Shown here: positions 25,031 to 43,502 of the stretch, in pieces
Layout of the letters: each line of letters opens with the position of its first letter
How positions within the stretch are numbered: position 1 is the stretch's first letter
NCBI RefSeq assembly: GCF_963676275.1
Contig: NZ_OY781091.1
Span: 3,140,775-3,204,774, forward strand
DNA from: an uncultured Cohaesibacter sp.
Lineage (GTDB): Bacteria; Pseudomonadota; Alphaproteobacteria; Rhizobiales; Cohaesibacteraceae
DNA: 64,000 nucleotides
Direction of reading: 5' to 3'
The notes under the pieces: generated by a model
The model's input: the letters and a program-made list of their open reading frames with translations, nothing else
The model's database searches: none
What the model was told of the DNA's origin: nothing
Position numbers and translations under genes: made by a program

Positions 25031-25031
25031 A

Positions 25032-26550: not shown

Positions 26551-27503
26551 TCCCCCCTCCCCCTGAGCTTGGCGGCGATGGAAGGCAGAAGTCCCTTTGG
26601 CAAGAAGATCATCACAAGAATCATCACCAGCCCCATGACCAGTTGCTCATATTCGGCAAACACCGTCAGAATCTGCGGCAGCAGAGTAAGAATGGCAGCC
26701 CCCAAAGCCGCTCCGAGCACAGAGTTGACGCCCCCCAGAACAGCCATGGTCACCATTTCGATCGAGTGCATGAAGCCTGCAACATCGGGCGTGATGAAAC
26801 TGTTCTGCAAGGCCAGCAGAGACCCGGCAACCGAGGCATAAACCGCAGAGATCACAAAAGCCTGTAGCTTGACCTGCGCCACATCGATGCCCACCGTGCG
26901 CGCCGCCACTTCCGATCCGTGCAGCGCCCGCATCGCCCGACCGGTAGAACTGTTGAACAGATTGAGCGCAATCCAGACCCCGATCAGCAGCGTGAAACCA
27001 CAGACGAGATACCAGAATTCACCGCTGGAAAGTTTCAGGCCGAGATCTTTCAGACCACTCCTCATGCCGAGTTTGGCAACGTCCATGCCATCCGGCCCGC
27101 CAGTCAAATCCCTTTCATTGGTCAGCAGCATGGACACCAGAATGCCAAAGCCGAGCGTCGCAACGGCGAGATAATAGCCTCTCAAGCGCAGGATCGGTTT
27201 TCCGATCAAGGCCGCCATAGCCGCAGAGACAAGCGCCCCCAAGATGACCGATAAAGCCGGATGCAGCCCCAGATAGTGCGGCCCCAGCGCACAGGCATAG
27301 GCTCCGATGCCGGCAAAACCGGCATGGCCAAGACTGATCTGGCCGGCATATCCGATCAGAATCACCAGACCGACAACACTCAGGGCATTGACGAAAATCA
27401 GCGCACCAACGCGGAAATAATAGCCTGAGGGGAAAAAGACCGGCAGGACCACGATCAATGCCAACAGAATGGCCAGTTGAATCCACTTGGAATAAGTTTG
27501 CAT
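26547..27503 (-). CDS. livM: Branched-chain-type ABC transporter permease LivM
   Basis: 318-residue inner-membrane permease with about eight to ten membrane segments. Family features include VGLVILIGYAGQISLGHAGF, GAYACALGPHYLG and the conserved IGKPILRLRGYYLAVATLGF near residues 100-120, as well as the DLTGGPDGM loop. It forms the channel with LivH. The gene follows livH after 3 bases. Confidence 0.88.
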   Translation of the reverse strand: MQTYSKWIQLAILLALIVVLPVFFPSGYYFRVGALIFVNALSVVGLVILIGYAGQISLGHAGFAGIGAYACALGPHYLGLHPALSVILGALVSAAMAALIGKPILRLRGYYLAVATLGFGILVSMLLTNERDLTGGPDGMDVAKLGMRSGLKDLGLKLSSGEFWYLVCGFTLLIGVWIALNLFNSSTGRAMRALHGSEVAARTVGIDVAQVKLQAFVISAVYASVAGSLLALQNSFITPDVAGFMHSIEMVTMAVLGGVNSVLGAALGAAILTLLPQILTVFAEYEQLVMGLVMILVMIFLPKGLLPSIAAKLRGRGE

Positions 27504-28442: not shown

Positions 28443-29591
28443 TTATTCGGCAAGGGTCCAGCCGCCATTCTTGATCTCGAGCATGCGGAATGCGCTGAGA
28501 TCGAGCCCGAGATGATCCGTAGCCGAGAAGCTGTAAGTCCCGGTCGTGCCAACCAGACCTGCGGTTGCTTCCAGAGCATCGCGGATGGCCTCGGCGTCCG
28601 AACCGCCTTTTTTCATCGCTTCGGTCATCAGCAGGAAGGCGTCATTGGCATAGCCGCCGAAGGTGGAAACCTTCAGGTCATATTTGCCCTCAAAAGCAGC
28701 CTTGTAGGATGTCACAACACCCTTCTGGGGATCGCCATCGGGCAGAATGTCGGCGATCAGCAATGCCGTCCCCGGCAGTCGCACGCCCTCTGCCGCATCA
28801 GCTCCGGCGAGCTTGATGAAGCCGTCGGAGGCAACGCCGTGGCTCTGATAGAGTGGCAGTTCGATACCGAGCTGGGCCTTGTTGCGGGTGACGATAGCCG
28901 GGCCCTGACCAAAGCCGGGATTAAGGATCGCCTGCACCCCGTCTGTCTTGGAAATCTTGGTCAATTGCGGCGTCATGTCGGCGTCCTGCGGACCATAGGT
29001 CTCATCGGCGATGATATCGATACCATGCTCGCCTGCAATCTCATGGCACTGAGCCTGCATCGAAGCGCCAAAACCGTCGGTGCCGGAAATCATGCCGATC
29101 TTGGTCAGGCCCCGCCCTGCCATATCGGTAAAGATCTTGGCGCAGGCCATGCGATCGGTATGCGGGGTCTTGAAGACAAAGGCGCGCACCGGATCGATGA
29201 TCTGAATGGCACCGGCCAGCGAAATGAACGGAATTTCCTCATCTTCCGCGACAGAAAGAATCGACATGGTGGTGCCTGTCGTCGAACCGCCGATGATGGC
29301 GACAACTTCGTCATCCTCGACAAGACGGGTCGCAAAAGTGCGTGCCTTGTTCGGATCGCCGCCATCGTCATAAAGGAAAAGCTCGATCTTCTCGCCATTG
29401 ATGCCACCAGCTTCGTTAAGCTGCTCGACCAGCATCTCGATGGTCTTTGCCTCAGGATCTCCCAGAAAGGCGGCCGGCCCGGTGGCAGAAACGCTGACCC
29501 CAAGGCGGATTTCTGCGGATGCCGGTGCCGAAAGACTGATGGCACCGAGCGCGACCAAGGTGGTCATGGCTGTGGTGATTGCGGTTTTCAT
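28443..29591 (-). CDS. Periplasmic binding protein of the LIV-type transporter in the Paa island
   Basis: 382-residue precursor with a Sec signal peptide (residues 1-25, cut after APASA). The mature protein is a type I periplasmic binding protein of the LivJ/amide-binding kind: IRLGVSVSATGPAAFLGDPE, VEQLNEAGGINGEKIELFLYDDGGD and AIIGGSTTGTTMSILSVAED. GGGAGG precedes the ATG at 29591; the frame stays open far upstream but overlaps paaN and lacks support. It follows paaN by 47 bases in the same direction, so a role in phenylacetate or related aromatic acid capture is likely but inferred. Related proteins elsewhere bind amino acids or aromatic acids. Confidence 0.85.
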   Translation of the reverse strand: MKTAITTAMTTLVALGAISLSAPASAEIRLGVSVSATGPAAFLGDPEAKTIEMLVEQLNEAGGINGEKIELFLYDDGGDPNKARTFATRLVEDDEVVAIIGGSTTGTTMSILSVAEDEEIPFISLAGAIQIIDPVRAFVFKTPHTDRMACAKIFTDMAGRGLTKIGMISGTDGFGASMQAQCHEIAGEHGIDIIADETYGPQDADMTPQLTKISKTDGVQAILNPGFGQGPAIVTRNKAQLGIELPLYQSHGVASDGFIKLAGADAAEGVRLPGTALLIADILPDGDPQKGVVTSYKAAFEGKYDLKVSTFGGYANDAFLLMTEAMKKGGSDAEAIRDALEATAGLVGTTGTYSFSATDHLGLDLSAFRMLEIKNGGWTLAE

Positions 29592-29638
29592 GGATAATCC
29601 TCCCGTTATATCCAATTGATAAATATGGCCTTTGTCGC

Positions 29639-31291
29639 TCAGGCGACCTTTGGCCAACGAACCATGACGCGCCGGAAACGCGGCGCGACAAAGGCTGAAT
29701 CCGTCAGACAGGCATTGCCTGAAGGATTGGCTCCGGTAACGTGAAAATCGGAAAAGGCCGCCGACTGATTGACATAGATATTGCCGGTCAGATTGACGGA
29801 CAGATTGACCCCCGCACGCCCGAAGGCATCCGCAGCAGCCTCGATCAGATTTTGATCCCTGGCATAAAGTGCTGCGGTGATCGCCCCTTTTTTTGTCGCT
29901 ATGCCAGATGCCCGGGCGATGGCATCTGCTGCATCGATGCAGGATATGAAGTAGGAGATCGGTCCGAAGCATTCCTCTTGCTCCACTCCCACCTCGTCTG
30001 CATCGAGTGCCAATAACAATGGTGTTGCGCTGCGGCCCCGTCCGGTCTCGCCGCTCTCGCGAATAACCCGGCCCAAGCTGCGGGCGATGGCAACCCGGGC
30101 CAGCGTCGCCGGATTGGCGATGGTGCCACAGACCCCGGACGCATGATCAGGATCGCACAGCAGATCATCAATGGCGCGCGCGATGCCGGAAGCGACCTCT
30201 TCGAAGCTCTTCTTTCCCTGATCGGTTTCGATCCCGGTACGCGGGATATAGATATTCTGCGGCGAGGTGCACATCTGGCCGGAATAGAGCGACAGCGAGA
30301 AGGCGATATTGTCACACATGCCTTTGAAATCGTCGGTATCGATGATGGTGATCGAGTTGACGCCGCTCTCTTCAGTGAAGATCTGCGCTGCGCCCGCGTT
30401 GGCCCGCACCCAGATTCCAAAAACCGAAGACCCCGTATAGTCGATCAGCGCGAAGGCGCCGCTCAGCACCAGTTCGCGCGTTATCTCCTGCCCCGGTTCA
30501 TCGGCTGCCAACAAGACAGCATCGGCAGGCAAGCCCGCCTCAGCCAACACCTCGCGCAAGACCTTAACGGTCAGCGCCAACGGCAGAATGGCAGCCGGAT
30601 GCGGTTTGACAATCACGCAATTGCCCGTCGCCAGACTGGCAAACAGTCCCGGATAGCCATTCCAGTTTGGAAAGGTATTGCAGCCAATGGTCAAGGCCAG
30701 CCCGCGCGGCAGAAGCTTCCAGCGCTTCTCCATGACGATGGATGGATGCTTGCCCTGAGGCTTCTCCCATATCGCATCCCGTACGGTCACATTCATCTCG
30801 GCCCACGCCGCTGCCACCGCCTCCAACCCGCGATCCTGCGAGTGCGGGCCTCCCGCCTGAAAGGCCATCGGGAAAGCCTGCCCGGTCACATGCATCACCG
30901 CATGCCCCATCACAAAGCTCATACCATTGAGCCGCACCAGCGCTTCGAGAAGAATACCCACACGCATTTCCGGGCTGACATCCCCCCAGACCTTCTGGGC
31001 CTTTTGAGAAGCGTCAATCAGCGTGGTTGCATCCGCAGCCGGATAAGAGATTTGCAGCAGCATCCCCCAAGGCGATTCCTCCAGCCCTACCCGATGGGTT
31101 TCAGGGTGATTGGCCATTTCAAAAGACTGACCGATCAATCGGTCAAAATCCCGTTGGCCGTCTTCCCGAGCCGTTTCCCCATAAAAGCGCCCGCTCGGAA
31201 TCTCCGGAAAGGGAGTCCAGAATTGACGCGATTTCAAAGCAGAAACTGCGTCATCCAATAGTTTTTGATGGCGATGAAAGAAGTCGGTCAT
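29639..31291 (-). CDS. paaN: PaaN-type aldehyde dehydrogenase of phenylacetate degradation
   Basis: 550-residue aldehyde dehydrogenase-like protein of the PaaN family proper, which is distinct from the PaaZ fusion. Catalytic Cys lies in SLYSGQMCTSPQNIYI (about residue 342) and the general-base Glu in IFTEESGVNSITII (about 310). GCNTFPNWNGYPGLFASLATG is a family-specific segment. Its exact step is not settled in the literature known to me; it has been proposed to act in ring opening or aldehyde oxidation. GGGGGG precedes the ATG. It is the first gene of the unit that continues with the LIV transporter, and a GACCGT box lies 32 bases upstream. Confidence 0.82.
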   Translation of the reverse strand: MTDFFHRHQKLLDDAVSALKSRQFWTPFPEIPSGRFYGETAREDGQRDFDRLIGQSFEMANHPETHRVGLEESPWGMLLQISYPAADATTLIDASQKAQKVWGDVSPEMRVGILLEALVRLNGMSFVMGHAVMHVTGQAFPMAFQAGGPHSQDRGLEAVAAAWAEMNVTVRDAIWEKPQGKHPSIVMEKRWKLLPRGLALTIGCNTFPNWNGYPGLFASLATGNCVIVKPHPAAILPLALTVKVLREVLAEAGLPADAVLLAADEPGQEITRELVLSGAFALIDYTGSSVFGIWVRANAGAAQIFTEESGVNSITIIDTDDFKGMCDNIAFSLSLYSGQMCTSPQNIYIPRTGIETDQGKKSFEEVASGIARAIDDLLCDPDHASGVCGTIANPATLARVAIARSLGRVIRESGETGRGRSATPLLLALDADEVGVEQEECFGPISYFISCIDAADAIARASGIATKKGAITAALYARDQNLIEAAADAFGRAGVNLSVNLTGNIYVNQSAAFSDFHVTGANPSGNACLTDSAFVAPRFRRVMVRWPKVA

Positions 31292-31322
31292 ATGCCCCCC
31301 AATTGACTTTCTATTTATAATT

Positions 31323-31334
31323 GACCGTTCGGAC
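31323..31334. promoter_or_regulatory. Paa box 1 (paaN side of the divergent promoter)
   Basis: GACCGTTCGGAC, preceded by ATAATT. It aligns without gaps with three other boxes at Paa promoters. It lies 32 bases upstream of the paaN start and exactly 33 bases (about three helical turns) from box 2. Confidence 0.65.
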
Positions 31335-31355
31335 TATTTATTCAAGTGTATAATT

Positions 31356-31370
31356 GACCGTCCGGACGGT
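31356..31370. promoter_or_regulatory. Paa box 2 (paaG side of the divergent promoter)
   Basis: GACCGTCCGGAC, again preceded by ATAATT, and lying inside the perfect 14-bp palindrome ACCGTCCGGACGGT (31357-31370). It lies 56 bases upstream of the paaG start. It probably binds the TetR encoded at 34104-34703. Confidence 0.7.
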
Positions 31371-31426
31371 TTATGCAACATATCTTTCGTCGGCTCTACA
31401 AAAGTGGGCCTTGGGGGGAGAAATAG

Positions 31427-32221
31427 ATGAGTGAATCCGAGACCGTTCTGTCGAATCTGGAAAGCGGCGTGCTGAGGCTGACGCTGAACCGGCCCGACAA
31501 ACTGAACAGCTTTAATGAAGAGATGCATCGCAGCCTGCAGGCCAAGCTGGAACTTGCCCACAGCGACAAGACCATTCGCGCCATATTGCTCACCGGGGCT
31601 GGTCGGGGCTTCTGCGCCGGGCAGGATCTTGGTGATCGCGATCCCAGAAAAGGCGGCGAAAAGCCCGATCTCGGCGTAACCCTTGAAACTTTTTACAATC
31701 CGACATTGCGCCTGATCCGCTCGCTGGAAAAACCGGTCATTTGTGCCGTTAATGGCGTGGCAGCAGGTGCAGGTGCCAATATTGCCCTTGCCTGCGATAT
31801 CGTTGTAGCGGCCAGATCGGCGAAATTCATTCAGGCCTTTGCAAAAATCGGCCTCATTCCCGACGCTGGCGGCAGCTGGTCGCTGACCAATATTCTGGGC
31901 GAGCCCCGCGCCAAGGCTCTTGCCATGCTGGCCGAGCCCCTGCCCGCCGAGCAGGCCGAGCGCTGGGGGCTGATCTGGAAGGCGGTGGATGACGAGGCCC
32001 TGCTTGACGAAGCAACCGCCATCGCCGAGCGCCTCGCCGCAGGTCCGACGGTAGGGCTGGGCCTCACCAAGCGTCTCATTCAGGCAGCATCAAGCCAATC
32101 GCTCGACAGCCATCTCGACATGGAACGGGACTGCCAACGACAGGCAGGTCAGACCGATGACTATGCCGAAGGGGTTGCGGCTTTTCTTGAGAAACGCCCG
32201 GCAAGCTTCAAGGGGCGCTGA
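31427..32221 (+). CDS. paaG: 1,2-epoxyphenylacetyl-CoA isomerase PaaG
   Basis: 264-residue crotonase-family enzyme. It has LTLNRPDKLNSFNEEMH at the N terminus, the oxyanion-hole segment GRGFCAGQDLGDRD (about 64-77) and NGVAAGAGANIALACDIV (about 108-125), all matching PaaG. KIGLIPDAGGSW carries the catalytic aspartate at the position used by isomerases. In the Paa pathway it converts the ring epoxide of phenylacetyl-CoA to oxepin-CoA and later shifts a double bond in the open chain. It is the first gene of the rightward paaG-paaI-paaK unit and is preceded by GGGGGGAGA. Confidence 0.9.
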   Translation: MSESETVLSNLESGVLRLTLNRPDKLNSFNEEMHRSLQAKLELAHSDKTIRAILLTGAGRGFCAGQDLGDRDPRKGGEKPDLGVTLETFYNPTLRLIRSLEKPVICAVNGVAAGAGANIALACDIVVAARSAKFIQAFAKIGLIPDAGGSWSLTNILGEPRAKALAMLAEPLPAEQAERWGLIWKAVDDEALLDEATAIAERLAAGPTVGLGLTKRLIQAASSQSLDSHLDMERDCQRQAGQTDDYAEGVAAFLEKRPASFKGR

Positions 32222-32222
32222 T

Positions 32223-32681
32223 ATGGACCAATATAACATGATGAGCCCGCAGAAACTGGCTGAGGCCTGCGCCCAGGCAATGTGGAATGGCGATGCAGCC
32301 TCTCAGGATCTGGGTTTGAAACTGGAGCGGATCGCGCCGGGCGAGGCGACCGTAAGCATGACCGTTTCCAAATCCATGACGAATGGTCACGGCAACGCCC
32401 ATGGCGGCTTTCTTTTTGCGCTTGCGGACAGTGCCTTCGCCTTTGCCTGCAACAGCTACAACCAAATCACGGTCGGCCAGAATTGCACGATCCACTATCT
32501 CGCGCCGGGGACTCTGGGAGACCGTTTGACGGCCCGGGCAACCGAGATTTTCCGTTCAGGCCGATCCGGCCTCTATGACGTGCAGGTGACACGCGAGGAC
32601 GGAATGGTAATCGCCGAGTTCCGAGGCCATGCCCGCACAATCAAGGGAACACTTCTGTCGCCACAAAGCGACAGCATCTGA
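32223..32681 (+). CDS. paaI: Hydroxyphenylacetyl-CoA thioesterase PaaI
   Basis: 152-residue hot-dog thioesterase. The characteristic active-site helix segment is GNAHGGFLFALADSAFAFAC (about 59-78), followed by ITVGQNCTIHYL and APGTLGDRLTARATE. PaaI releases CoA from dead-end or inhibitory acyl-CoAs such as ring-hydroxylated phenylacetyl-CoA. The ATG at 32223 overlaps nothing and begins 1 base after the paaG stop, with AAGGGGCG as ribosome-binding site inside paaG; the longer upstream frame overlaps paaG and is rejected. Confidence 0.88.
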   Translation: MDQYNMMSPQKLAEACAQAMWNGDAASQDLGLKLERIAPGEATVSMTVSKSMTNGHGNAHGGFLFALADSAFAFACNSYNQITVGQNCTIHYLAPGTLGDRLTARATEIFRSGRSGLYDVQVTREDGMVIAEFRGHARTIKGTLLSPQSDSI

Positions 32682-32700
32682 TACCGGGGAGGAAACAACA

Positions 32701-34011
32701 ATGAACGATCTGACACCGACAAGGAATCTACTGGACCCGATTGAAGTCGCATCCCGCGATGAAATCGCAGCCCTGCAATATCACCGTATGCGTCGCTCGC
32801 TGACCCATGCTTATGAAAATTCGCCTTTTTATCGCAAGAGGTTCGATGACCATGGCATTCATCCGTCCGACCTGAAATCGCTTGCCGATCTGGCCAAATT
32901 TCCCTTCACCCAGAAGACCGATCTCAGAGACACCTATCCCTTCGGCATGTTTGCGGTGCCAAGAGAAAAGCTGGTTCGTATTCATGGTTCATCGGGCACG
33001 ACCGGCAAGCCGACCGTTGTCGGATACACCCAAAATGACATTGACGTCTGGGCCGATCTGGTCGCCCGTTCGATCCGCGCATCCGGTGGCCGTCCCGGCG
33101 ATATTGTCCATGTTGCCTATGGCTATGGCCTGTTCACAGGCGGTCTCGGAGCCCATTACGGAGCCGAGCGTCTTGGCTGCACGGTGGTTCCCATTTCCGG
33201 CGGCATGACCGAACGTCAGGTTACACTGATCGAGGATTTCAAGCCCTCGATCATCATGGTTACGCCATCCTACATGCTGTCGATCCTTGATGAGTTCCGC
33301 AGGCAGGGTCTTGACCCGCGCAAAAGCTCTCTCAAGGTTGGCATCTTCGGGGCCGAACCCTGGACCAACTCCATGCGCGCCGAAATCGAGCAGGCTTTTG
33401 ACATGCATGCTGTTGACATTTATGGGCTTTCCGAAATCATGGGACCGGGTGTCGCCAATGAATGCGTCGAGACGAAGGATGGGCTGCACATCTGGGAAGA
33501 CCATTTTTATCCCGAAATCATCGACCCAGTAACGGGGGACGTTCTGCCTGATGGGGAAATGGGCGAGTTGGTCTTTACCACCCTCACCAAGGAAGGGCTG
33601 CCGATGGTGCGCTACCGCACCCGCGACCTGACCCGTCTTCTGCCCGGCACGGCGCGCTCCATGCGCCGGATGGAGAAGATTACCGGCCGTTCCGACGACA
33701 TGATCATCCTGCGCGGTGTCAATGTCTTCCCGACCCAGATCGAGGAACAGATCCTCAAATGCAAGGGCCTTACCCCGCATTTCCAGATCGAGTTGTCGCG
33801 CAAGAATCACAAGGACACCATGGTCATCCATGTGGAAGCGGCAACAGACCACATATCCGAGGATGCCCGCAAGGCCTCTGCCGTCGAGCTTTCCCACCAT
33901 ATCAAGTCCGTGGTCGGAGTGACGACGAGAATTGATGTGAGGGACCCGCAGGAACTGGCCCGTTCCGAAGGCAAGGCCAAGCGCGTTATAGACAATCGGC
34001 CAAAAATTTAA
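32701..34011 (+). CDS. paaK: Phenylacetate-CoA ligase PaaK
   Basis: 436-residue AMP-forming ligase that turns phenylacetate, ATP and CoA into phenylacetyl-CoA, the committed step. The P-loop-like segment is IHGSSGTTGKPTVVGYT (about 93-109). The DIYGLSEIMGPGVANECVET segment (about 238-257) and MVRYRTRDLT (about 302) are typical of PaaK. The C-terminal GRSDDMIILRGVNVFPTQIE region completes the adenylation fold. The ATG at 32701 follows GGGGAGGAAACAACA; the frame opens earlier but overlaps paaI. The length matches characterised PaaK proteins. Confidence 0.92.
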   Translation: MNDLTPTRNLLDPIEVASRDEIAALQYHRMRRSLTHAYENSPFYRKRFDDHGIHPSDLKSLADLAKFPFTQKTDLRDTYPFGMFAVPREKLVRIHGSSGTTGKPTVVGYTQNDIDVWADLVARSIRASGGRPGDIVHVAYGYGLFTGGLGAHYGAERLGCTVVPISGGMTERQVTLIEDFKPSIIMVTPSYMLSILDEFRRQGLDPRKSSLKVGIFGAEPWTNSMRAEIEQAFDMHAVDIYGLSEIMGPGVANECVETKDGLHIWEDHFYPEIIDPVTGDVLPDGEMGELVFTTLTKEGLPMVRYRTRDLTRLLPGTARSMRRMEKITGRSDDMIILRGVNVFPTQIEEQILKCKGLTPHFQIELSRKNHKDTMVIHVEAATDHISEDARKASAVELSHHIKSVVGVTTRIDVRDPQELARSEGKAKRVIDNRPKI

Positions 34012-34014
34012 ACC

Positions 34015-34026
34015 GACCGTATGGTC
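34015..34026. promoter_or_regulatory. Paa box 3 upstream of the paaR-like gene
   Basis: GACCGTATGGTC, preceded by AAACC, lies 4 bases after the paaK stop and 78 bases before the TetR start. It suggests autoregulation from a promoter of its own. Confidence 0.6.
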
Positions 34027-34047
34027 AACCATACTAGAATTGGTGTA

Positions 34048-34070
34048 TAGGGGGCATAGAGCGCCCCCTA
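34048..34070 (+). terminator. Hairpin between paaK and the paaR-like gene
   Basis: TAGGGGGC and GCCCCCTA form a perfect 8-bp stem with a 7-base loop, followed by the weak tail CTTTCGTCTT. It may reduce readthrough from paaK into the regulator gene or form part of the regulator leader. Confidence 0.55.
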
Positions 34071-34103
34071 CTTTCGTCTTCATTATTTTGGAGAATTCTG
34101 TCC

Positions 34104-34703
34104 ATGGCCCGAACACGCGCAAACGATTTCGAAGAAAAACAACATGGTTTGCTGCTGGACGCGGCGCGGGTTTTTGCAACACAGGGCATGGAAAAGGCGT
34201 CCATGTCCCAGATTGCATCCGCAGCCGGCGTGTCGAAATCCCTGCTCTATCACTATTATCCGTCAAAGGATGCACTGATCTTTGAGATCGTCCATTCTCA
34301 CCTGTCGGAACTGGATCAGGCCCTGATAGAAGCAGATGACGCCACGCTCGCTCCTGAAGCGCGGCTGGAAAAGCTCGTCAGTACGGTGATTGAAGCCTAT
34401 CGTGGCGCGGACGATCAGCACAAGGTGCAGCTCAATGCCAGTCAGGCTCTGTCCGACGAACAAAGAGCCGAAATCGTCAAGGTCGAGCGGCGCATCGTCA
34501 AGCGCTTTTCAAACACCTTGCGGTTGGTCCACCCGACATTGGATGATCCGGACCGCCCGTTGCTGATGCCGGTCACCATGTCCCTGTTCGGCATGATGAA
34601 CTGGGTCTATATGTGGTTCAAGGAAGACGGCCCGATCTCGCGCGAGGATTATGCGCATATCGCAACTGTGCTGATACTGGAGGGCGTAAAGGCCGTTCGC
34701 TAG
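34104..34703 (+). CDS. paaR: TetR-family regulator of the Paa island (PaaR-like)
   Basis: 199-residue TetR repressor. The helix-turn-helix is ARVFATQGMEKASMSQIASA, then AGVSKSLLYHYYPSKDALIF (to about residue 60). The C-terminal ligand domain carries LLMPVTMSLFGMMNWVYMWF near 155-174, typical of regulators responding to aromatic acyl-CoAs. In bacteria that use TetR-type PaaR, phenylacetyl-CoA is the inducer; that it is here too is inference. It lies in the middle of the cluster, downstream of paaK, and four copies of a shared box occur at the three Paa promoters. The gene ends 1 base from the convergent paaY stop. Confidence 0.8.
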   Translation: MARTRANDFEEKQHGLLLDAARVFATQGMEKASMSQIASAAGVSKSLLYHYYPSKDALIFEIVHSHLSELDQALIEADDATLAPEARLEKLVSTVIEAYRGADDQHKVQLNASQALSDEQRAEIVKVERRIVKRFSNTLRLVHPTLDDPDRPLLMPVTMSLFGMMNWVYMWFKEDGPISREDYAHIATVLILEGVKAVR

Positions 34704-34704
34704 G

Positions 34705-35313
34705 TTAGCTTTTGCGCGCGAGAACCAAAGGTTCATGCCCCGCAACCTCAACCCGACGCCGGTTTTCTTCCGGTGCCCGCAGGGGCTGAGCAGCCTTCAG
34801 TTTTGAAGGCGCATCCTGCGCCAAACGCTGATAGACAGCAGTCCCTTCCATCTTCCATGCGATTTCCGCCTCGGACAGCGTCCGGACAATGCGCGCAGGC
34901 GAGCCGACGACCATTGATGCGGCCGGAATGATCATCCCGGCCTTGACGAAGGATCCGGCCCCGATGATCGCATTCTCTCCCACCTCGGCCTCATCCATCA
35001 CAACGGCATTCATGCCCACCATGGCATTGCGGCCGATATGACATCCATGCAGAACAGCACCATGGCCGATATGGCCCAGCTCTTCTATCACCACATCCTT
35101 GCCGGGAAAGGCATGGGCAACGCAGGTCTCCTGAAAATTCGAGCCCGGCGCCATGGTGATCCGCCCGAAATCACCGCGCAGAACGGCTCCGGGGCCGACA
35201 TAGCAGCCAGCCCCGATAATGACGTCACCGATCAGGACCGCTGCCGGATGAACAAAAGCGGTATCGTCCACCACTGGCACGATGTCATCCCACGACCAGA
35301 CGCCCCCAGTCAT
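34705..35313 (-). CDS. paaY: PaaY, gamma-carbonic-anhydrase-fold thioesterase
   Basis: 202-residue left-handed beta-helix protein. Hexapeptide repeats run through HPAAVLIGDVIIGAGCYVG, GAVLRGDFGRITMAPGSNFQ and HIGHGAVLHGCHIGRNAMVG. The zinc-type histidines are visible in VAHAFPG, HIGHGAVLHG. In E. coli PaaY is a thioesterase that removes a dead-end seven-membered-ring CoA ester made when PaaZ's aldehyde step fails. The start overlaps the paaZ stop by 4 bases (ATGA). It is the last gene of the paaJ-to-paaY unit and converges on the regulator gene without room for a terminator. Confidence 0.85.
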   Translation of the reverse strand: MTGGVWSWDDIVPVVDDTAFVHPAAVLIGDVIIGAGCYVGPGAVLRGDFGRITMAPGSNFQETCVAHAFPGKDVVIEELGHIGHGAVLHGCHIGRNAMVGMNAVVMDEAEVGENAIIGAGSFVKAGMIIPAASMVVGSPARIVRTLSEAEIAWKMEGTAVYQRLAQDAPSKLKAAQPLRAPEENRRRVEVAGHEPLVLARKS

Positions 35314-37382
35314 TCCGCAGCCTCCAGCAACGGCCAGCTCTTGGCCACCATGGTCAACACATCATATTGCGCAACGATCTGGTCGCGCTGATTGGCAACC
35401 TGACAATCCCAGCGCACTTCGCCATGTTCGGCATTCTCACGCGGATTGATTTCCTTGCAGGTCAGACGCACATGCAGACTGTCGCCGAAATAGACCGGCA
35501 TCATGAAGCGCAGATTATCGACACCATAATTGGCAAGCACCGGTCCCGGTTCCGGATCAACAAACAGGCCAGCCGCAAAGGAAGCGATGAGATAGCCATG
35601 GGCGACCCGATCCTCGAAAAATGGATTGGCCCTGGCCGCTTCCCTGTCCATATGGGCATAGAAGCGATCACCGGTGAATTCGGCAAAATGCTCGACATCG
35701 GCCTGAGTGACCGGACGGGCATCGGTGACAATCTGATCGCCGATCTGCAGATCTGCCAAAGATTTGCGGAACGGGTGGATGTCGCTATGTGCAGGCGCGC
35801 CTTCCATCCATTGCCCGGTTACCGCAGACAGCATTGCCGGAGGCCCCTGAATGGCCGAGCGCTGCATGAAATGCTTGACGCCCCGCATCCCTCCCATTTC
35901 CTCGCCACCACCAGCCCGGCCTGGCCCACCATGCACCAGCGGCGCAAGCGGCGAGCCATGCCCGGTCGAACTTTTGGCCGAGGCGCGATTGCCGATCAGC
36001 ACCCGACCATGGAACGGCGCCAGTTCGCTGGCAAATTTCGCAGCGAGACCGGCATTGTTGGTAAAGACGGAGGAAACAAGAGAACCGCGCCCCTTGCGCG
36101 CAAGCGCAACCGCTTCGGATGCATCATCATAGGGCATCAGCGTAGCCACCGGTCCGAATGCCTCGATGGCATGCACCGCCTCGGCCTCCATCGGATTGGC
36201 ACAATGGAGCAATATCGGAGCCATGAAAGCCCCCGTCTCATTGTCACCCGACACCAGAGCGCAGCCATCAGGATCACCCGCAAGAATCTCCGCTTCGCCC
36301 ATCAGCTCACGCACCCGATTGCGCACGGTCTCACGGTCCCTGAGCGAGACCAGCGCTCCCATGCGCACCGAAGGGTCTGTCGGCAGCCCGATCGGTATCT
36401 GACCAAGACGGCCTTTGAGCGCATCAATCACGGCCCCCTCGCAATCACGAGGCACCATGATCCGGCGAATGGCGGTGCATTTCTGTCCCGCCTTGGCAGT
36501 CATCTCGCGCGAAACTTCGCGCACGAACAGGTCGAACTCCGGCGTCCCCGGCCCTGCGTCGGCCCCAAGAATGGACGCATTGAGACTGTCCGCCTCCATG
36601 GTGAAGCGCACCGAGTTGGCAACGATGGAAGACTTGCTCCTGAGCATCCGGCCAGTGGTGGCAGAGCCGGTAAAGGTCACCACATCCTGTTCGGTCACAT
36701 GATCGAGCAGATCTCCCGGATTGCCGGTCACAATCTGCAAGGCGCCATCGGGCAGCAGCCCGCTTTCCAGCATCCGCCGGACCACAAGCTCTGTCAGATA
36801 GGCCGTCTGCGTTGCCGGTTTGACCAGACAGGGCATGCCTGCAATCAGTGATGGTGCAATCTTCTCCAGCATGCCCCAGACCGGAAAATTATAGGCATTG
36901 ATATGGATGGCCACACCTTCCATCGGCGTCAGAATATGCTGCCCCATGAAGGAAGCATCGCGCGACAGCACCTCGACCGGCCCTTCCGTCAGCACACGGG
37001 CATTGGGAAACTCGCGCCGGGCCTTGGAAGCGAAGGCCAGCATGGTGCCGATCCCGCCCTCTATGTCAGGCCATGAATCAGCCCGTGTGGCACCCGTGGC
37101 AAAGCTCTCCTGATAGAATTCTTCCTTCAGCTCCATAAGTCTGAGGCCTAGTGCCTTGAGCATCAGGGCTCGCTGATGGATCGTCATGGCGCGCAAGGCC
37201 GGACCGCCAACGGCGCGCCCCCATTCAAGAGCAGCCCTGAAATCGAGCCCCTCGGTTCCGATCAGGGCATGCAGCTTGCCTGTGGCAGCATTGGCGACCG
37301 GCTCTCCCTCGCCTTCTCCCGCACGCCAGGCGCCGACGATATAGCTTTCCAGACGGCGTGGTGACAGGATCTCGTCCGTCAT
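35310..37382 (-). CDS. paaZ: Bifunctional oxepin-CoA hydrolase/aldehyde dehydrogenase PaaZ
   Basis: 690-residue fusion. Residues 1-520 are an aldehyde dehydrogenase domain with the catalytic Cys in MTAKAGQKCTAIRRIMV (about 300) and the Glu in FTMEADSLNASILG. Residues 535-680 are a MaoC-like hydratase domain, QIVTDARPVTQADVEHFAEF then TGDRFYAHMD and FEDRVAHGYLIASFAAG, with the expected catalytic Asp and His. It hydrolyses oxepin-CoA, opening the ring, and oxidises the resulting aldehyde with NADP. The ATG at 37382 has AGAGG eight bases upstream; ATGs at 37388 and 37397 are less well placed. Confidence 0.92.
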   Translation of the reverse strand: MTDEILSPRRLESYIVGAWRAGEGEGEPVANAATGKLHALIGTEGLDFRAALEWGRAVGGPALRAMTIHQRALMLKALGLRLMELKEEFYQESFATGATRADSWPDIEGGIGTMLAFASKARREFPNARVLTEGPVEVLSRDASFMGQHILTPMEGVAIHINAYNFPVWGMLEKIAPSLIAGMPCLVKPATQTAYLTELVVRRMLESGLLPDGALQIVTGNPGDLLDHVTEQDVVTFTGSATTGRMLRSKSSIVANSVRFTMEADSLNASILGADAGPGTPEFDLFVREVSREMTAKAGQKCTAIRRIMVPRDCEGAVIDALKGRLGQIPIGLPTDPSVRMGALVSLRDRETVRNRVRELMGEAEILAGDPDGCALVSGDNETGAFMAPILLHCANPMEAEAVHAIEAFGPVATLMPYDDASEAVALARKGRGSLVSSVFTNNAGLAAKFASELAPFHGRVLIGNRASAKSSTGHGSPLAPLVHGGPGRAGGGEEMGGMRGVKHFMQRSAIQGPPAMLSAVTGQWMEGAPAHSDIHPFRKSLADLQIGDQIVTDARPVTQADVEHFAEFTGDRFYAHMDREAARANPFFEDRVAHGYLIASFAAGLFVDPEPGPVLANYGVDNLRFMMPVYFGDSLHVRLTCKEINPRENAEHGEVRWDCQVANQRDQIVAQYDVLTMVAKSWPLLEAAE

Positions 37383-37398
37383 GATCATTCCTCTCATT

Positions 37399-38163
37399 TC
37401 AGAGTAATTTCAGCGCTGCAAGTTGCGTCTGGGCAAGGTTCGTCCACTCATCCAGAAGGGCCTGATTGGAGCTATGGCGCAACCCCATGCGGTGCAGACG
37501 TGCAAAGCGCTCAGACTCCGCGGCTCCAAATGTCGCAGCCACCCGCGGCAACCAGTAATCGACAGACCGGGCAGCCTCGGCCCACCCCTCTTCGCTGGTG
37601 CAGATATCTTCAAGGCCAATCAGGCCCAGATCCTTGTGCCGGTCTTCAACGGGCGCAATCTCACGAATGACCTCGGCAAAGGGAATATAGGATATCTGGG
37701 CCAGCTCTCTGAGCTGAATGCCCGTCGCCAATCCCATCAGCAAATTCATCACACATGCATCGGTCCAGCCCGCAAGCGGAGAGTGAAACACCGACAGGCG
37801 CATGTCTGCCCCCTGCCTGCGCGGATCAATGCCGGCTTCGCGGGGCTGGCGCGCAGCCCAGTCGTGGGCCCGATTATAGAGCGCCTTGTCGGTGCCGAAA
37901 TCTTCCATCAGATCAAGCACCTTCTCCGCATTGGCCGCCTTCTCCAGAACGATCCGGCTGGCAGCAATGCGTTGGGATATCCCCGGCGCCCAATTGATGG
38001 CATCGGCAAAGCCTGCCGAACCGGCCAGTTCGCTGTCCACAAAGGAAGACATCATGCGCAACAGTTCGGCGCGATAGCGCGGCGGCACATTGTCCGGCGA
38101 GGTGAGCTTGCCACCCTTGGCAAGATAATCCTCGATTGGCATCACAGCGGCTTCACTCGTCAT
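37399..38163 (-). CDS. Extra PaaA/PaaC-like ferritin-fold protein with a degenerate metal site
   Basis: 254-residue helical protein related to the phenylacetyl-CoA epoxidase PaaA/PaaC family, in addition to the full set paaA-E. By eye, E45 (DSELAGS) and the EDRH motif (E173, H176) keep positions of di-iron ligands, but the first EXXH motif of PaaA (DEAGH) is replaced by a segment around E80-V82 (NAEKV) without histidine. Like PaaC it may therefore be a structural or regulatory partner rather than a second oxygenase. It overlaps the paaE 3' end by 11 bases and precedes paaZ by 16 bases, so it belongs to the same transcript. Its function is unknown to me. Confidence 0.7.
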   Translation of the reverse strand: MTSEAAVMPIEDYLAKGGKLTSPDNVPPRYRAELLRMMSSFVDSELAGSAGFADAINWAPGISQRIAASRIVLEKAANAEKVLDLMEDFGTDKALYNRAHDWAARQPREAGIDPRRQGADMRLSVFHSPLAGWTDACVMNLLMGLATGIQLRELAQISYIPFAEVIREIAPVEDRHKDLGLIGLEDICTSEEGWAEAARSVDYWLPRVAATFGAAESERFARLHRMGLRHSSNQALLDEWTNLAQTQLAALKLL

Positions 38164-39229
38164 AACTGATCACCACCTTGTCTGAAACAGGAACACACTG
38201 GCAGGAAAGGACATAACCGGCCTTCACCTCGTAATCTTCCAGCGCATGATTGACTGCCATCTCGACTTCGCCTTCCAGAACCCGGGCGCGACAGGTCGAG
38301 CAGACCCCGGCCTTGCAGGAGTAGGGTGCGTCCATTTCATTGGCAACCGCTGCATCGAGAATGGAATGCCCGTCCTTGGGCATTGAAAACTGGCGCGTCG
38401 ATCCATCCAGCGTCACGGAAACATCACAGCTGTTGCTCGTCACCGCACCGGCCTTCGAAACCGCCTTATGGGGTGCCCTGCCCGGTTGCGATGAAGCGAA
38501 CAGCTCGAACTTGATCTGTTCATCGGCAATGCCATGCTTGCGCAGATTGTCCGCGATGGTCAGCATCATCGCCTCCGGCCCACAGATGAAGGCCGTATCA
38601 ATGCTCTCCGCCTCGATCCAGAGATCGAACAGGGCATCGAGCTTTTCTTCATCGATCCGTCCGGTAAAGAGATCGATCTCCTGCCCCTCGCTCTTGAGAA
38701 TATGGATAACCGACAAGCGCCCCAGATAGCTGTTCTTGAGATCCTCCAGATCCTCGCGGAACATGATGGAACTCATCTGACGGTTGGCATAAACCAGCGT
38801 AAAGGTGGACTTCGGCTCTCGAGCCAAGGTGGTCTTGATGATCGAGAGCACCGGCGTAATGCCAGAACCGGCGGCAAAGGCCAGATAGTTTTTCTCCGCC
38901 GCCGGGTCGAGCGGCGTGAAGAAGCGCCCCATTGGCGGCATGGCGTCGATATGATCGCCCACCTTCAGCTCTTCATTGGCCCAGGTGGAGAAGGCACCGC
39001 CCTCCACCCGCTTGATGCCGACCTGCAGGCAGCCGTCATCAACACCGGCGCAAATGGAATAGGAGCGCCGCAGCTCCTGCTGATCGAATGCGCGGCGAAA
39101 GGTCAGATACTGCCCCTGCGTGAAGGCAAAATCCTTCTCGTCGGCAGCATCCGGTTTCAGGGTCAGAACCACGGCATCGCGTGTCTCGCGGCGCACATCG
39201 GTCACTTCAAGTGAAGAAAATCGTGACAT
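38153..39229 (-). CDS. paaE: Phenylacetyl-CoA epoxidase reductase PaaE
   Basis: 358-residue flavo-iron-sulfur reductase that carries electrons from NADPH to the PaaA di-iron site. The FAD domain has RRSYSICAG (about 50) and AGSGITPVLSIIKTTL (about 118), the NAD(P) domain has FICGPEAMM (about 217) and the C-terminal plant-type ferredoxin domain has YSCKAGVCSTCRARVLEG with the later cluster cysteine in VLSCQCVPVS. The ATG at 39229 has GGAGGAGAGG upstream; an upstream ATG at 39247 is within the leader and less likely. Confidence 0.92.
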   Translation of the reverse strand: MSRFSSLEVTDVRRETRDAVVLTLKPDAADEKDFAFTQGQYLTFRRAFDQQELRRSYSICAGVDDGCLQVGIKRVEGGAFSTWANEELKVGDHIDAMPPMGRFFTPLDPAAEKNYLAFAAGSGITPVLSIIKTTLAREPKSTFTLVYANRQMSSIMFREDLEDLKNSYLGRLSVIHILKSEGQEIDLFTGRIDEEKLDALFDLWIEAESIDTAFICGPEAMMLTIADNLRKHGIADEQIKFELFASSQPGRAPHKAVSKAGAVTSNSCDVSVTLDGSTRQFSMPKDGHSILDAAVANEMDAPYSCKAGVCSTCRARVLEGEVEMAVNHALEDYEVKAGYVLSCQCVPVSDKVVISYDE

Positions 39230-39250
39230 GGCAAGCCTCTCCTCCAAGGC

Positions 39251-39790
39251 TCAGATGCATTTGAAATAGTCGAATGGCTCCAGACAATCCTTGCAGCGCC
39301 AGGAAGCCTTGCAGGGGGTCGAGCCAAACTGGCTGACCCGCTCTGTATGGGTGGAGCCGCAGCGTGGACACTCGACCACCAGGTTCCCCTTGCCGGTCAT
39401 GCGGCGCGCGCGCGCAGCCATGACGCCACTGGCAGCCGTGCCGTCAATCGGCGGAGCGATACCAAAGGCACGCAGCTTCTCGCGCGCCTCCGTGGTGATC
39501 CAGTCACTCGTCCATGGAGGCGAGAGCCGCCTTTCAAGCCGCAGCCTGTCAAGGCCCTTCTCGCGCAATTTCTCCTCGATGGCGAGGTCGATGACAGAGG
39601 TTGCCGGACAACCCGAATAGGTCGGCGTGACAGCGACAACCAGCATCTCGCCCTCATAGCGCACCTCTCGAATGATGCCCAATTCGGCAACCGAGACCAC
39701 CGGGATTTCCGGATCCGGCACTTCGCCGAGCCAATCCCATATGGTGTCAACTGACGGCCGCGTCATGGTTGGACTGATGGTCGTCATCAT
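39251..39790 (-). CDS. paaD: Epoxidase maturation factor PaaD
   Basis: 179-residue protein with an N-terminal MIP18/DUF59-type domain (GEVPDPEIPVVSVAELGII at about 22-40, TPTYSGCPATSVIDLAIEEK near 55-75) and a C-terminal zinc-ribbon-like tail (CPRCGSTHTE, then WRCKDCLEPFDYFKC). PaaD is needed for epoxidase activity, probably as an iron or iron-sulfur maturation factor. It lies 5 bases after paaC in the same unit. Confidence 0.9.
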   Translation of the reverse strand: MMTTISPTMTRPSVDTIWDWLGEVPDPEIPVVSVAELGIIREVRYEGEMLVVAVTPTYSGCPATSVIDLAIEEKLREKGLDRLRLERRLSPPWTSDWITTEAREKLRAFGIAPPIDGTAASGVMAARARRMTGKGNLVVECPRCGSTHTERVSQFGSTPCKASWRCKDCLEPFDYFKCI

Positions 39791-39795
39791 CGCAC

Positions 39796-40632
39796 CTACC
39801 AGCTCGCGCCGGGATAGGCACGCTGCAGAAACTGCATTTCGGCCAGAATGTAACCCAGATGCTCGGTATGTCGCCCGATATTACCACCCTTCTGGGCAAA
39901 ACCGGCCGGTCCGGGCATGTCGAGCGTAGCCTCGGCCAGAACCTCGCGCAGGGTTCCTTCCCATTCCTTGCGCAAAGCCGATGGTCTGGGTGCGATACCT
40001 GCCGCGGCCATTGCGTCGTCAACGGCATCATCCATGAACATTTCATCGATATAGGGCCAGAGCTGATCCAGCGCAGCTTGCATCCGGCAATGGCTTTCCT
40101 CGGTGCCGTCCCCCAGCCGGACAACCAGATCGGACGAGCGCTCAAGATGATAGCTGGCTTCCTTGACGGCCTTGGCTGCGATCTCGGCAACCCTCGGGCT
40201 GGCCGAGCCGGTCAACCACACCAGCATGGCATGATGACGCGCATCAAACAGGAACTGGCGCATCAGGGTGACGCCCATGTCGCCATTGGGCAATTCGCAC
40301 AAAAGCAAATTGCGGAACTGCAAGGCATCGCGCAGATAGGCAAGCGCATCGGCATCCCGGCCCTTGCCTTCGACTTCACCAGCGAGCCCCAGCCACATCT
40401 GGGTGTGGCCGATCAGATCCAGCGCCGTGTTGGCCATGGCGATATCTTCTTCCAGTGCTGGCGCATGGCCGCACCATTCAGACACGCGATGGCCCAGAAT
40501 GATGGCACTGTCCCCCATCCGGCAAAGCCACTCAAAAAATGCAGGTGCCAATGCGGCATCACTGACAAAGCGGTCCTCGACCGGGTTCAGCAAAGCCCCG
40601 GTTGCGGCCTTTTCCATTGCTCCAGCGCTCAT
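39796..40632 (-). CDS. paaC: Epoxidase structural subunit PaaC
   Basis: 278-residue ferritin-fold protein, the non-catalytic partner of PaaA. Typical segments are DSAIILGHRVSEWCGHAPALEED (in two parts, about 41-63), LRDALQFRNLLLCELPNGD and DLVVRLGDGTEESHCRMQAA. The start ATG shares its A with the TGA of paaB (TGATG), a common coupled arrangement. A downstream ATG (40617) is possible but its spacing to GGAG is too short. Confidence 0.9.
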   Translation of the reverse strand: MSAGAMEKAATGALLNPVEDRFVSDAALAPAFFEWLCRMGDSAIILGHRVSEWCGHAPALEEDIAMANTALDLIGHTQMWLGLAGEVEGKGRDADALAYLRDALQFRNLLLCELPNGDMGVTLMRQFLFDARHHAMLVWLTGSASPRVAEIAAKAVKEASYHLERSSDLVVRLGDGTEESHCRMQAALDQLWPYIDEMFMDDAVDDAMAAAGIAPRPSALRKEWEGTLREVLAEATLDMPGPAGFAQKGGNIGRHTEHLGYILAEMQFLQRAYPGASW

Positions 40633-40919
40633 CACATATGCCCCACTTCTTCGGGGATATCGAAGAAGGTCGGATGTCGATAGGCCTTGCTTTCAGCCGG
40701 ATCGAACAATGGCCCCTTCTCGGACGGGCTGGACGCGGTGATGTCGTTGGACTTCACCACCCAGATGGACACCCCCTCCTTGCGGCGGGTATAGACATCG
40801 CGCGCATGGTGGATCGCCATTTCAGCGTCGGGCGCATGCAGGCTGCCGACATGACGGTGATTGAGGCCGTGTTGACCCCGGATAAAAACTTCCCAAAGCG
40901 GCCATTCTTTTCTGGACAT
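40632..40919 (-). CDS. paaB: Epoxidase subunit PaaB
   Basis: 95-residue PaaB protein, a small bridging subunit of the PaaABCE complex. The pattern WPLWEVFIRGQHGLNHRHVG and SLHAPDAEMAIHHARDVYTRR matches the family, as does the short length. The ATG at 40919 is preceded by an excellent AGGGGGAGGAGA; the frame opens 53 codons earlier but overlaps paaA and is rejected. Confidence 0.92.
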   Translation of the reverse strand: MSRKEWPLWEVFIRGQHGLNHRHVGSLHAPDAEMAIHHARDVYTRRKEGVSIWVVKSNDITASSPSEKGPLFDPAESKAYRHPTFFDIPEEVGHM

Positions 40920-40951
40920 GGTTTCTCCTCCCCCTAAAACGTCCCCAAAGG

Positions 40952-41947
40952 TCACTCGGCTGCGGTTGTTGCAGCCCGACGGCGCATTGCCTTTTCGGCA
41001 TGGGCGTAAAGCCCTTCCCGGAACCATTCCCCCTCGTCCCAAGCCTTGACGCGGGCATTCATCCTCTCGCGATTGCACGGACCATTGCCCTTGATCACTT
41101 CGAAAAACTCGGACCAGTCCGGCTGGCTGAAATCATAGCCACCCTTTTCCTCATTCCATTTGAGATGCTCGTCCGGAATCGTCAGGCCCAGATATTCCGC
41201 CTGCGGCACAGTCTGATCGACGAATTTCTGACGCAGCTCGTCATTGGTATTGATCTTGATTTTCCAGGCCATCGACTGGGCAGAATGAACCGAATCCGCA
41301 TCCGACGGACCAAACATCATCAGCGCCGGATACCAGAAGCGGTTCATCGCATCCTGCGCCATTTCCTTCTGCGCCGGGGTGCCTGCGGCCATCTTCATCA
41401 TGATCGAATAGCCCTGACGCTGGTGGAAGCTTTCTTCCTTGCAAATGCGGATCATCGCCCGGCTATAGGGGCCATAGGAAGTGCGCTGCAAAGGCACCTG
41501 ATTCATGATCGCAGCCCCATCGACCAGCCAGCCAACCGCACCCATGTCGGCCCAGTTGAGGGTTGGATAGTTGAAGATGGAGCTGTATTTCATGGCACCG
41601 GAATGCAGCTTTTCGGTCAGATCATCGCGGCTGACGCCAAGCGTTTCTGCCGCCGAATAGAGATAGAGCCCGTGGCCAGCCTCATCCTGCACCTTGGCCA
41701 GCAAAATGGCCTTGCGCTCAAGGGTTGGAGCGCGGGTGATCCAGTTGCCCTCCGGCAGCTGTCCGACAATTTCCGAATGGGCATGCTGTCCGATCTGCCG
41801 GATCAGCGTCTTGCGATAACCCTCGGGCATCCATTCCTTGGGCTCGATCTTTTCGCCCCGGTCGATCCGGTCCTGAAAAGCCAGTTCTTCGGGCGTCATT
41901 TCATCCCGGGATTTCATTCCTTCCGACTTCACCATCTGAGCATACAT
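40952..41947 (-). CDS. paaA: Phenylacetyl-CoA epoxidase catalytic subunit PaaA
   Basis: 331-residue di-iron oxygenase subunit that inserts one oxygen into the ring of phenylacetyl-CoA. Iron ligands are visible: [10 protein letters not shown] (Glu), [17 protein letters not shown] (Glu and His) and [15 protein letters not shown] (Glu and His). The [20 protein letters not shown] segment is also typical. The ATG at 41947 has GGAGG upstream. It is the second gene after paaJ in the leftward unit. Confidence 0.93.
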
Positions 41948-41961
41948 GTCCGACCTCCTCT

Positions 41962-43167
41962 TCAGACCCGTTCCAGAATGAGAGCAATGCCCTGCCCGAC
42001 CCCGACGCACATGGTGCAGAGCGCATAGCGCCCACCGCTGCGTTGAAGCTGGTATGTGGCGTGCAATACGAGCCGCGCCCCGGACATGCCCAGCGGATGC
42101 CCCATGGCGATGGCGCCGCCATTGGCGTTGATATGGCCAGCCTCCTCCGGCAGACCAAGCTCGCGCAGCACGGCAAGCGCCTGCGCGGCAAAAGCTTCGT
42201 TGAGTTCGATGACATCCATCTGATCCAGCGTCAGACCGGCCCGCTCCAGCACCCGACGGGTTGCAGGCACCGGCCCGATGCCCATCACGCGCGGCGGCAC
42301 CCCGGCGGCAGCCATGGCAACAATGCGCGCTTTCGGTACAAGGCCATTGGCCTTGGCCGCGCTTTCTGAAGCGATGATCAGCCCAGCAGCGCCATCATTG
42401 ACGCCGGATGCATTACCCGCTGTCACGCTCAGATACGGGCCATTCACACCGCGCAATCTGGCCAGCGCCTCAGCGCTGGTACCCGGACGCGGATGCTCGT
42501 CGCAGTCAACGAGGATCGGATCTCCCTTGCGCTGGGGAATGGCAACGGGAACGATTTCTTCGGCAAAGAGGCCAGCCTTCTGTGCAACGTCCCAGCGGCG
42601 CTGGCTTTCTGCGGCAAAGCGGTCCTGATCCTCACGCGAAATTCCATAGTCCGCCGCCACATTGTCCGCCGTTTCCGGCATGCTGTGGGTGCCATGGATC
42701 TTGTCCAGTGCAGCATTCTTGAAGCGCCAACCGATGGTCGTGTCATAGATCTCAGCATTGCGGGAAAAGGCTCTGTCTGCCTTGGCAAGGACGAAAGGAG
42801 CCCGGCTCATGCTCTCCACGCCACCGGCCACCAGCATATCGCCGTCGCCTGCGCGAATGGTCCGTGCTGCGAGCCCGATGGCGTCCATGCCGGAACCACA
42901 AAGCCGGTTGACCGTCGTGCCCGGAACACCGACGGGCATGCCGGACAGCAGAACCGCCATGCGGGCAACATTGCGATTATCCTCGCCAGCCTGATTGGCA
43001 CAGCCCAAGATCACATCGTCGATCTGTTCCCAGTCAACCTGCGGATTGCGTTCGAGCAATGCCTTGAGCGGCACCGCGGCCAGATCGTCGGCACGCACCG
43101 AAGACAGGGCTCCCCCGTAGCGCCCAATCGGTGTGCGGATCGCGTCGCAAACAAAGGCTTCCGCCAT
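41962..43167 (-). CDS. paaJ: 3-oxoadipyl-CoA/3-oxo-5,6-dehydrosuberyl-CoA thiolase PaaJ
   Basis: 401-residue thiolase. The active-site Cys lies in [16 protein letters not shown] (about 90), the His region in [20 protein letters not shown] (about 350) and the second Cys in [18 protein letters not shown] near the C terminus. [20 protein letters not shown] is typical of PcaF/PaaJ. It acts twice in the pathway, releasing acetyl-CoA each time and finally succinyl-CoA. GGGGAGAG precedes the ATG. It is the first gene of the leftward paaJ-A-B-C-D-E-X-Z-Y unit; the equivalent PcaF of the protocatechuate pathway is the alternative name. Confidence 0.9.
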
Positions 43168-43215
43168 GAAATCTCTCCCCCCAATGAGATTGAAAATCGG
43201 CCTTATTAATTAACC

Positions 43216-43227
43216 GACCGTTCGTTC
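43216..43227. promoter_or_regulatory. Paa box 4 upstream of paaJ
   Basis: GACCGTTCGTTC, preceded by TTAACC, lies 48 bases upstream of the paaJ start, in line with the three other Paa boxes. Confidence 0.6.
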
Positions 43228-43502
43228 ACATTATGACAAAGAAATTTTCATGCGCAACCGCTTTCTGCCAGCAATTGGGATGAGAGGCCCGATTAAGCCA
43301 CACCACATTGGTAGTATTTGCCAATAGGATACTGAATTAACTTATATATTCACCTTATCAAAAATACAGCATCAGCCAGTTGCAAGGTGACCGGGGTTCA
43401 AAACAGGACAATAGTTCCAACCAGAAAGTCGCAAATATGCCCATCCCCGACGGCATATCCGACAAAGGCGACCGGCTCCAACAATTGGCCGACATCTCCA
43501 AA

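Follow-up and report, generated by a model that had tools for sequence, protein, structure and literature searches.

A conserved PaaR-type operator predicted to join phenylacetate catabolism and a LIV-type transporter in Cohaesibacter

A 64,000-nucleotide stretch of DNA from an uncultured Cohaesibacter sp. (the window; host genome 5.03 megabases (Mb), single contig) carries a phenylacetate (paa) cluster, with paaN, livKHMGF and a fused gene on the left and paaG-I-K and paaR, a gene for a TetR-family regulator, on the right. A short box occurs four times here: twice in the divergent paaN/paaG promoter, once before paaR and once upstream of paaJ. We put the probability at about 0.9 that these boxes are operators of PaaR, a TetR-family repressor encoded at 34104–34703, and that the units are derepressed together by phenylacetyl-coenzyme A (phenylacetyl-CoA). 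The repeated box is very probably a PaaR operator, as predicted, that holds the paa genes, together with a linked uptake system, in the off state until food arrives.

A sequence-only reading of the window had aligned four 12-mers without gaps, and all four are present on the plus strand at 31323, 31356, 34015 and 43216 with 0 mismatches and with the flanks it described. Their positions stand, but the orientation was wrong for the paaR and paaJ sites, because these match on the minus strand; the AACC that had been read as a left flank is GGTT, the right end of the operator, in reverse complement. The predicted full operator is approximately TGACCGNNCGGNCGGTTWA, 17–19 bp long, and the 12-mer is a part of it in mixed orientation. 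The putative sites, with their ranks under the matrix described below, are as follows.

31322..31338, plus strand: putative PaaR operator, paaN-proximal copy (site 1), TGACCGTTCGGACTATT; rank 4, decayed in this strain
31355..31371, plus strand: putative PaaR operator, main copy in the divergent paaN/paaG promoter (site 2); rank 1
34011..34027, minus strand: putative PaaR operator in the paaK–paaR gap, TGACCATACGGTCGGTT; rank 3
43212..43228, minus strand: putative PaaR operator upstream of paaJ, TGAACGAACGGTCGGTT; rank 2

Within the main site, 31357–31370 is a perfect 14-bp palindrome, ACCGTCCGGACGGT (14/14 dyad), in which two ACCG-NN-CGGT-like repeats, shifted by 4 bp relative to each other, can be discerned, forming a dual overlapping inverted repeat. 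Repeats of this form, about 14–15 bp long, are present at the paa promoters, cleanest at 31357–31370 and degenerate at site 1, a position that reads GTCCGGACGATTT in seven distinct close Cohaesibacter relatives (the close relatives below).

First, the four sites stand out in the window under a matrix estimated from promoters of other families. Because 3 of the 54 promoters in an earlier matrix came from that family (L057–L059), the matrix was estimated afresh from 51 nonredundant paaG promoters, none of them from a same-family locus, the site positions still being located using the older matrix; the ranking was identical. Among all window positions on both strands, this out-of-family matrix places the four sites first to fourth (27.4, 19.8, 17.9 and 12.3 bits; the fifth position scores 11.0). 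None of 60 third-order Markov sequences of 64 kb held four hits at or above the score of the fourth site, the mean being 0.42 such hits per sequence. At up to one mismatch from the 12-mer, the window has 10 matches against 3.51 expected, a number reached by 0 of 100 shuffles. De novo motif discovery on 54 nonredundant paaG promoters gave CATTGACCGaCCGGTCGGTTTA; the same search on paaJ promoters returned an A-rich string instead of the box, and the paaJ box was located by pattern and by a scan with the paaG-promoter matrix.

Second, the box is kept in relatives, defined as loci carrying this TetR at 40–93% identity (91 loci; the duplicates L085 and L086, from the L052 and L056 genomes, are dropped from the box counts and remain in the gene-order, block-shuffle, two-site and hairpin counts). 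Comparing promoters of genomes with an orthologous TetR, as had been proposed, and counting the core GACCGNNCGGTC with at most one mismatch, we found the box in the paaG promoter of 82/82 relatives (paaG was not found in 7 of the 91 loci) and in the paaJ/paaA promoter of 63 of the 68 with usable sequence (7/7 close relatives and 56/61 others; L090, L109, L143 and L161, without sequence upstream of paaJ/paaA, are left out). Block-shuffled copies yielded about one box per set. The paaK–paaR gap, by contrast, has the box in only 30/89 loci (7/7 close relatives and 23/82 other loci). The 75 other paaG loci and 82 other paaR loci include L057, which shares the host's family, and L058 and L059, which share its genus and whose PaaR is 43–44% identical. 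Among the 75, 69 paaG promoters fit one regular expression, ATTGACCG to TTTATGCAA being nearly invariant save two positions. Comparison of the window with the seven close relatives shows each site as an invariant island amid variable spacers, except for the decayed site 1, and the paaJ site falls within 23 invariant bases.

Third, the box tracks the regulator. In 297 genomes of the order, in which PaaR-positive means a match to this TetR at E ≤ 1e-35 and a box lies within one mismatch of a strict pattern, the box occurs in 19/56 PaaR-positive and 1/241 PaaR-negative genomes (Fisher 1.7e-14); among genomes with PaaA the figures are 19/47 and 0/25 (Fisher 1.2e-4). The 20 box genomes and the 47 and 25 PaaA-positive genomes were counted by eye, and the Fisher values use typed counts. 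In the 19 PaaR-positive genomes that have a box, no more than 4 kb separates it from the TetR gene. Together with the paaG promoters, these counts bear out the earlier assignment of the box to the TetR at 34104–34703, whose binding is predicted. Two genomes of the sample carry a further one-mismatch box that lies on a different contig from paaR (G275:C12:143919-143938 and G259:C92:98672-98691), a possible extra PaaR target.

Finally, the protein is of the TetR family and is encoded beside paa genes. paaR lies 92 bp behind paaK, and at most 600 bp separate the two genes in the 91 loci examined. A profile search matched 18 models for TetR proteins in general, none reaching its cut-off, and no PaaR model surfaced. 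The predicted fold is TetR-like, and its nearest folds include TetR structures determined with acyl-CoA ligands, namely AibR with isovaleryl-CoA and FasR with C20-CoA, although other TetR subfamilies are also compatible. A TetR match at E ≤ 1e-35 is found in 23 of 398 sampled genomes of the phylum. A search of the genome for PaaX, the GntR-type alternative (TIGR02277), gave 0 matches at E 0.001; its control matched in 3/14 genomes including Escherichia coli, none exceeding cut-off.

By analogy with characterised PaaR proteins, either one PaaR dimer or a pair of them on half-sites that overlap would bind approximately TGACCGNNCGGNCGGTTWA. Bound at the divergent paaN-liv-fused/paaG-I-K promoter, at the paaJ...Y promoter and before paaR, it would block RNA polymerase. 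PaaK would convert phenylacetate to phenylacetyl-CoA, which would release PaaR so that the units switch on together, and the LIV transporter would import phenylacetate or a related aromatic acid.

Two characterised systems provide the closest parallels. The operator of Burkholderia cenocepacia PaaR (BCAL0210) is reported as a 15-bp inverted repeat, ACCGACCGGTCGGTT, tested with reporters (PMC2770484, PMC9493321). There, as predicted here, a TetR repressor controls the paa genes through a dual overlapping inverted repeat with a perfect 14-bp dyad, and the repeats lie at paa promoters with one in the regulator's transcript leader (PMC2770484, PMC9493321). The systems differ in that the main site here is ACCGTCCGGACGGT, that paaR follows paaG-I-K here and lies downstream of paaABCDE there, and that here the regulon probably includes a LIV transporter and close relatives carry the operator doubled. 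Thermus thermophilus PaaR (TTHA0973), also of the TetR family, is described as repressing two paa operons, its own gene being the first of one of them, and as acting at a 14-bp palindrome, AACnAACGTTnGTT (PMC6651687), with phenylacetyl-CoA as effector (PMC9493321). Its operator architecture is similar, the 14-mer being a perfect dyad there too, whereas its half-sites are A-rich and TTHA0973 heads the epoxidase operon. PaaX of E. coli and Pseudomonas, a GntR-type regulator induced by phenylacetyl-CoA (PMC9493321), has the role and inducer proposed here for PaaR but belongs to an unrelated protein family.

The doubled site is a local feature. The two sites of the divergent promoter begin 33 bp apart, as had been noted, and the same spacing is found in 7/7 close relatives, whose 33-bp units are identical at 27–28 of 33 positions; the window's own units share 26/33, site 1 being decayed. 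No second site at this spacing occurs in any of the 75 other loci, among them the same-genus loci L058 and L059, whose PaaR is divergent; in L101 one weak second hit lies 121 bp away. Because the pair is confined to close relatives, it is a local tandem duplication in part of Cohaesibacter and does not reflect a general requirement for three helical turns.

The reach of the regulon to the left of the divergent promoter was judged from gene order. The genes concerned, and the two units on the right, are as follows.

34104..34703, plus strand: paaR, TetR-family regulator, 199 amino acids
31427..34011, plus strand: paaG, paaI and paaK; TIGR02280, TIGR02286 and TIGR02155 exceed cut-off
29639..31291, minus strand: paaN (PaaN_2); TIGR02288 at 713.8 bits against a cut-off of 578.75
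28443..29597, minus strand: livK, coding for a LIV-type substrate-binding protein; gap of about 41 bases from paaN, approximate start codon
27507..28379, 26547..27503, 25720..26550 and 25032..25733, minus strand: livH, livM, livG and livF, open reading frames that touch or overlap
23078..25033, minus strand: fused enoyl-CoA hydratase/3-hydroxyacyl-CoA dehydrogenase, FadJ-type, overlapping the livF stop
34705..43167, minus strand: paaJ-A-B-C-D-E-(PaaA-like)-Z-Y unit, converging on paaG-I-K-paaR

The best NCBIfam models for livH-M-G-F are LivH, LivM, LivG and LivF, each below its cut-off. For the fused gene, FadJ and FadB models fall below cut-off and PaaH and PaaF models match in part; it could supply both the PaaF and the PaaH step.

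The LIV transporter and the fused gene most likely belong to the PaaR regulon, as the arrangement of the loci suggests and as the sequence-only reading had proposed. Of the 91 loci, 61 have paaN opposite paaG and livK following paaN; in 14, where no paaN was found, the boxed promoter has livK immediately opposite; the remainder have paaN without livK found (4), neither (5) or no paaG (7). The transporter is placed in the regulon because livK itself faces the boxed promoter in those 14 loci, and the fused gene because its place behind the liv genes is conserved: sought in 7/7 close relatives and 30/78 other loci, it lies about 7–9 kb from paaR on the expected strand in 32/37 genomes (by eye), the place not being kept in L087, L088, L106, L112 and L136. 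PaaR could instead control the catabolic units while the transporter and the fused gene, merely nearby, are transcribed separately, and the gaps of about 41 bp (paaN–livK) and 63 bp (livK–livH) could hold a promoter; the 61 and 14 loci, the touching or overlapping livH-M-G-F and fused gene, and the conserved place of the latter make this improbable.

As for the transported substrate, the PDB chains nearest to LivK by sequence are 3sg0, 4dqd, 3ukj and 3tx6. Of 22 Rhodopseudomonas palustris binding proteins whose annotation points to branched-chain amino acids or amides, few are reported to have responded to these, aromatic, fatty or dicarboxylic acids being bound instead (PMC3223731), so phenylacetate is a sensible guess for the LivK ligand.

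A second alternative is that another TetR of acyl-CoA catabolism binds the boxes and that paa is under a global, not a local, switch. Other TetRs of fatty-acid and branched-chain catabolism recognise cores similar to GACCGNNCGGTC, and 8 places in the genome match PaaR at E ≤ 0.001, PaaR itself included. A global regulator, however, should have other intergenic sites, and only three places in the genome lie within two mismatches of the long pattern TGACCGNNCGGTCGGTTWA, all of them paa sites; the box also tracks PaaR among paa-positive genomes (19/47 against 0/25). We regard this alternative as very improbable. Site 1 and 15 other places stand at exactly three mismatches, 14 of the 15 inside open reading frames. 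As TGACCGNNCGGTCGGTTWA was composed partly with these sites in view, the out-of-family matrix is the cleaner evidence. A weak genome match, L168, lies outside open reading frames of at least 100 codons, about 300 bases from a tRNA. An intragenic palindrome in paaN, TGACCGATCAATCGGTCAA (31128–31146; three mismatches to the long motif, matrix rank 5), was considered as an auxiliary operator and set aside, because its pattern was found in 0/91 relative loci scanned.

That the boxes are chance matches is extremely improbable: the exact 12-mer does recur in the genome at less than the rate of a control pattern, but all four sites are intergenic, top-ranked by the out-of-family matrix and, site 1 excepted, invariant islands, and no loss of the paaG-promoter box was seen among the 82 relatives. 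The genome-wide scan that had been proposed gave a divided answer: the string is not diagnostic by itself, since it has 19 copies, fewer than the control's 73, but the 15 non-paa copies all lie inside mechanical open reading frames of at least 100 codons, whereas the four paa copies are intergenic (the paaR copy overlaps solely an antisense frame running over paaK).

Several results weigh against assigning the boxes to PaaR. The exact 12-mer is common, with 19 copies in 5.03 Mb (73 for its backward-read control), and the long pattern at three mismatches is no commoner than its backward control (19 against 48). The top single chance hit in the Markov sequences reached 23.0 bits. The paaR-leader site is absent in 59/82 loci beyond the close relatives, and the paaJ/paaA box in L057–L060 and L151. 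By the strict pattern, 37 of the 56 PaaR-positive genomes have no box within one mismatch, and one PaaR-negative genome has one; the co-occurrence test is uncorrected for phylogeny, and its 25 PaaR-negative genomes may hold a more distant PaaR. Finally, a sigma-70 consensus scan found no promoter in the three box regions, so that −35 and −10 positions are suggestions only. Separately, L057–L060 are divergent paa clusters within the host's family (L058 and L059 within its genus) with PaaR about 40–51% identical, and form a second lineage of the cluster.

On the paaN strand, inspection of 31312–31385 by eye shows TTGCAT and TTATAC 19 bp apart, with the main operator filling the interval; on the paaG strand the operator overlaps TTGACC. 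The consensus scan did not pick up this arrangement. Before paaR there is a further element.

34048..34070, plus strand: terminator-like hairpin, G+C-rich then T-rich, between the paaK stop/paaR operator and paaR; minimum free energy z of the leader −3.3

This hairpin is kept in 7/7 close relatives (by eye), a hairpin with T-run occurs in 52/91 paaK–paaR gaps against 10/91 shuffled, and it may stop paaGIK read-through into paaR.

In the paaJ...Y unit, PaaA, B, C, D and E, the PaaJ-type thiolase and PaaZ exceed their cut-offs and the PaaY model falls below. A second PaaA-like protein is encoded between paaE and paaZ (37399–38163, minus strand; TIGR02156 at 41.3 bits against a cut-off of 280) and is present in 59 of 70 relative loci having both paaE and paaZ. 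Rfam models at gathering score have 0 matches in the window.

PaaR-type switches are a known kind; the Cohaesibacter example is new and well conserved. Phenylacetyl-CoA-responsive PaaR is reported from B. cenocepacia and T. thermophilus, and the name PaaR is used in Corynebacterium glutamicum as well (PMC9493321). RegPrecise 3.0 has a PaaR collection, for which it cites the C. glutamicum work (PMC3840689). A 2026 study catalogues PaaR and/or PaaX beside alphaproteobacterial paa genes (PMC13186573); the terms operator, binding site, transporter and paaN have 0 occurrences in its main text, and to that extent it covers neither the boxes nor the LIV unit. Our literature search returned no account of this operator or of the LIV link in Alphaproteobacteria, although RegPrecise pages or subscription papers may hold one.

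The analysis gives an explicit, conserved sequence for the predicted PaaR operator, TTGACCGNCCGGNCGGTTTATGCAA, for Rhodobacterales and Rhizobiales, and makes PaaR a candidate phenylacetyl-CoA sensor part. To our knowledge, LIV-type ABC importers are a class not usually listed for the phenylacetate pathway, and the placing of one inside the predicted phenylacetate regulon yields a testable substrate prediction. We suggest, tentatively, that a 33-bp operator-promoter module was tandemly duplicated in a group of Cohaesibacter to give two PaaR-controlled modules, and that across Rhodobacterales and Rhizobiales PaaR may couple phenylacetyl-CoA sensing to a dedicated LIV-type phenylacetate importer. 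The local operator duplication is a small natural experiment in promoter evolution.

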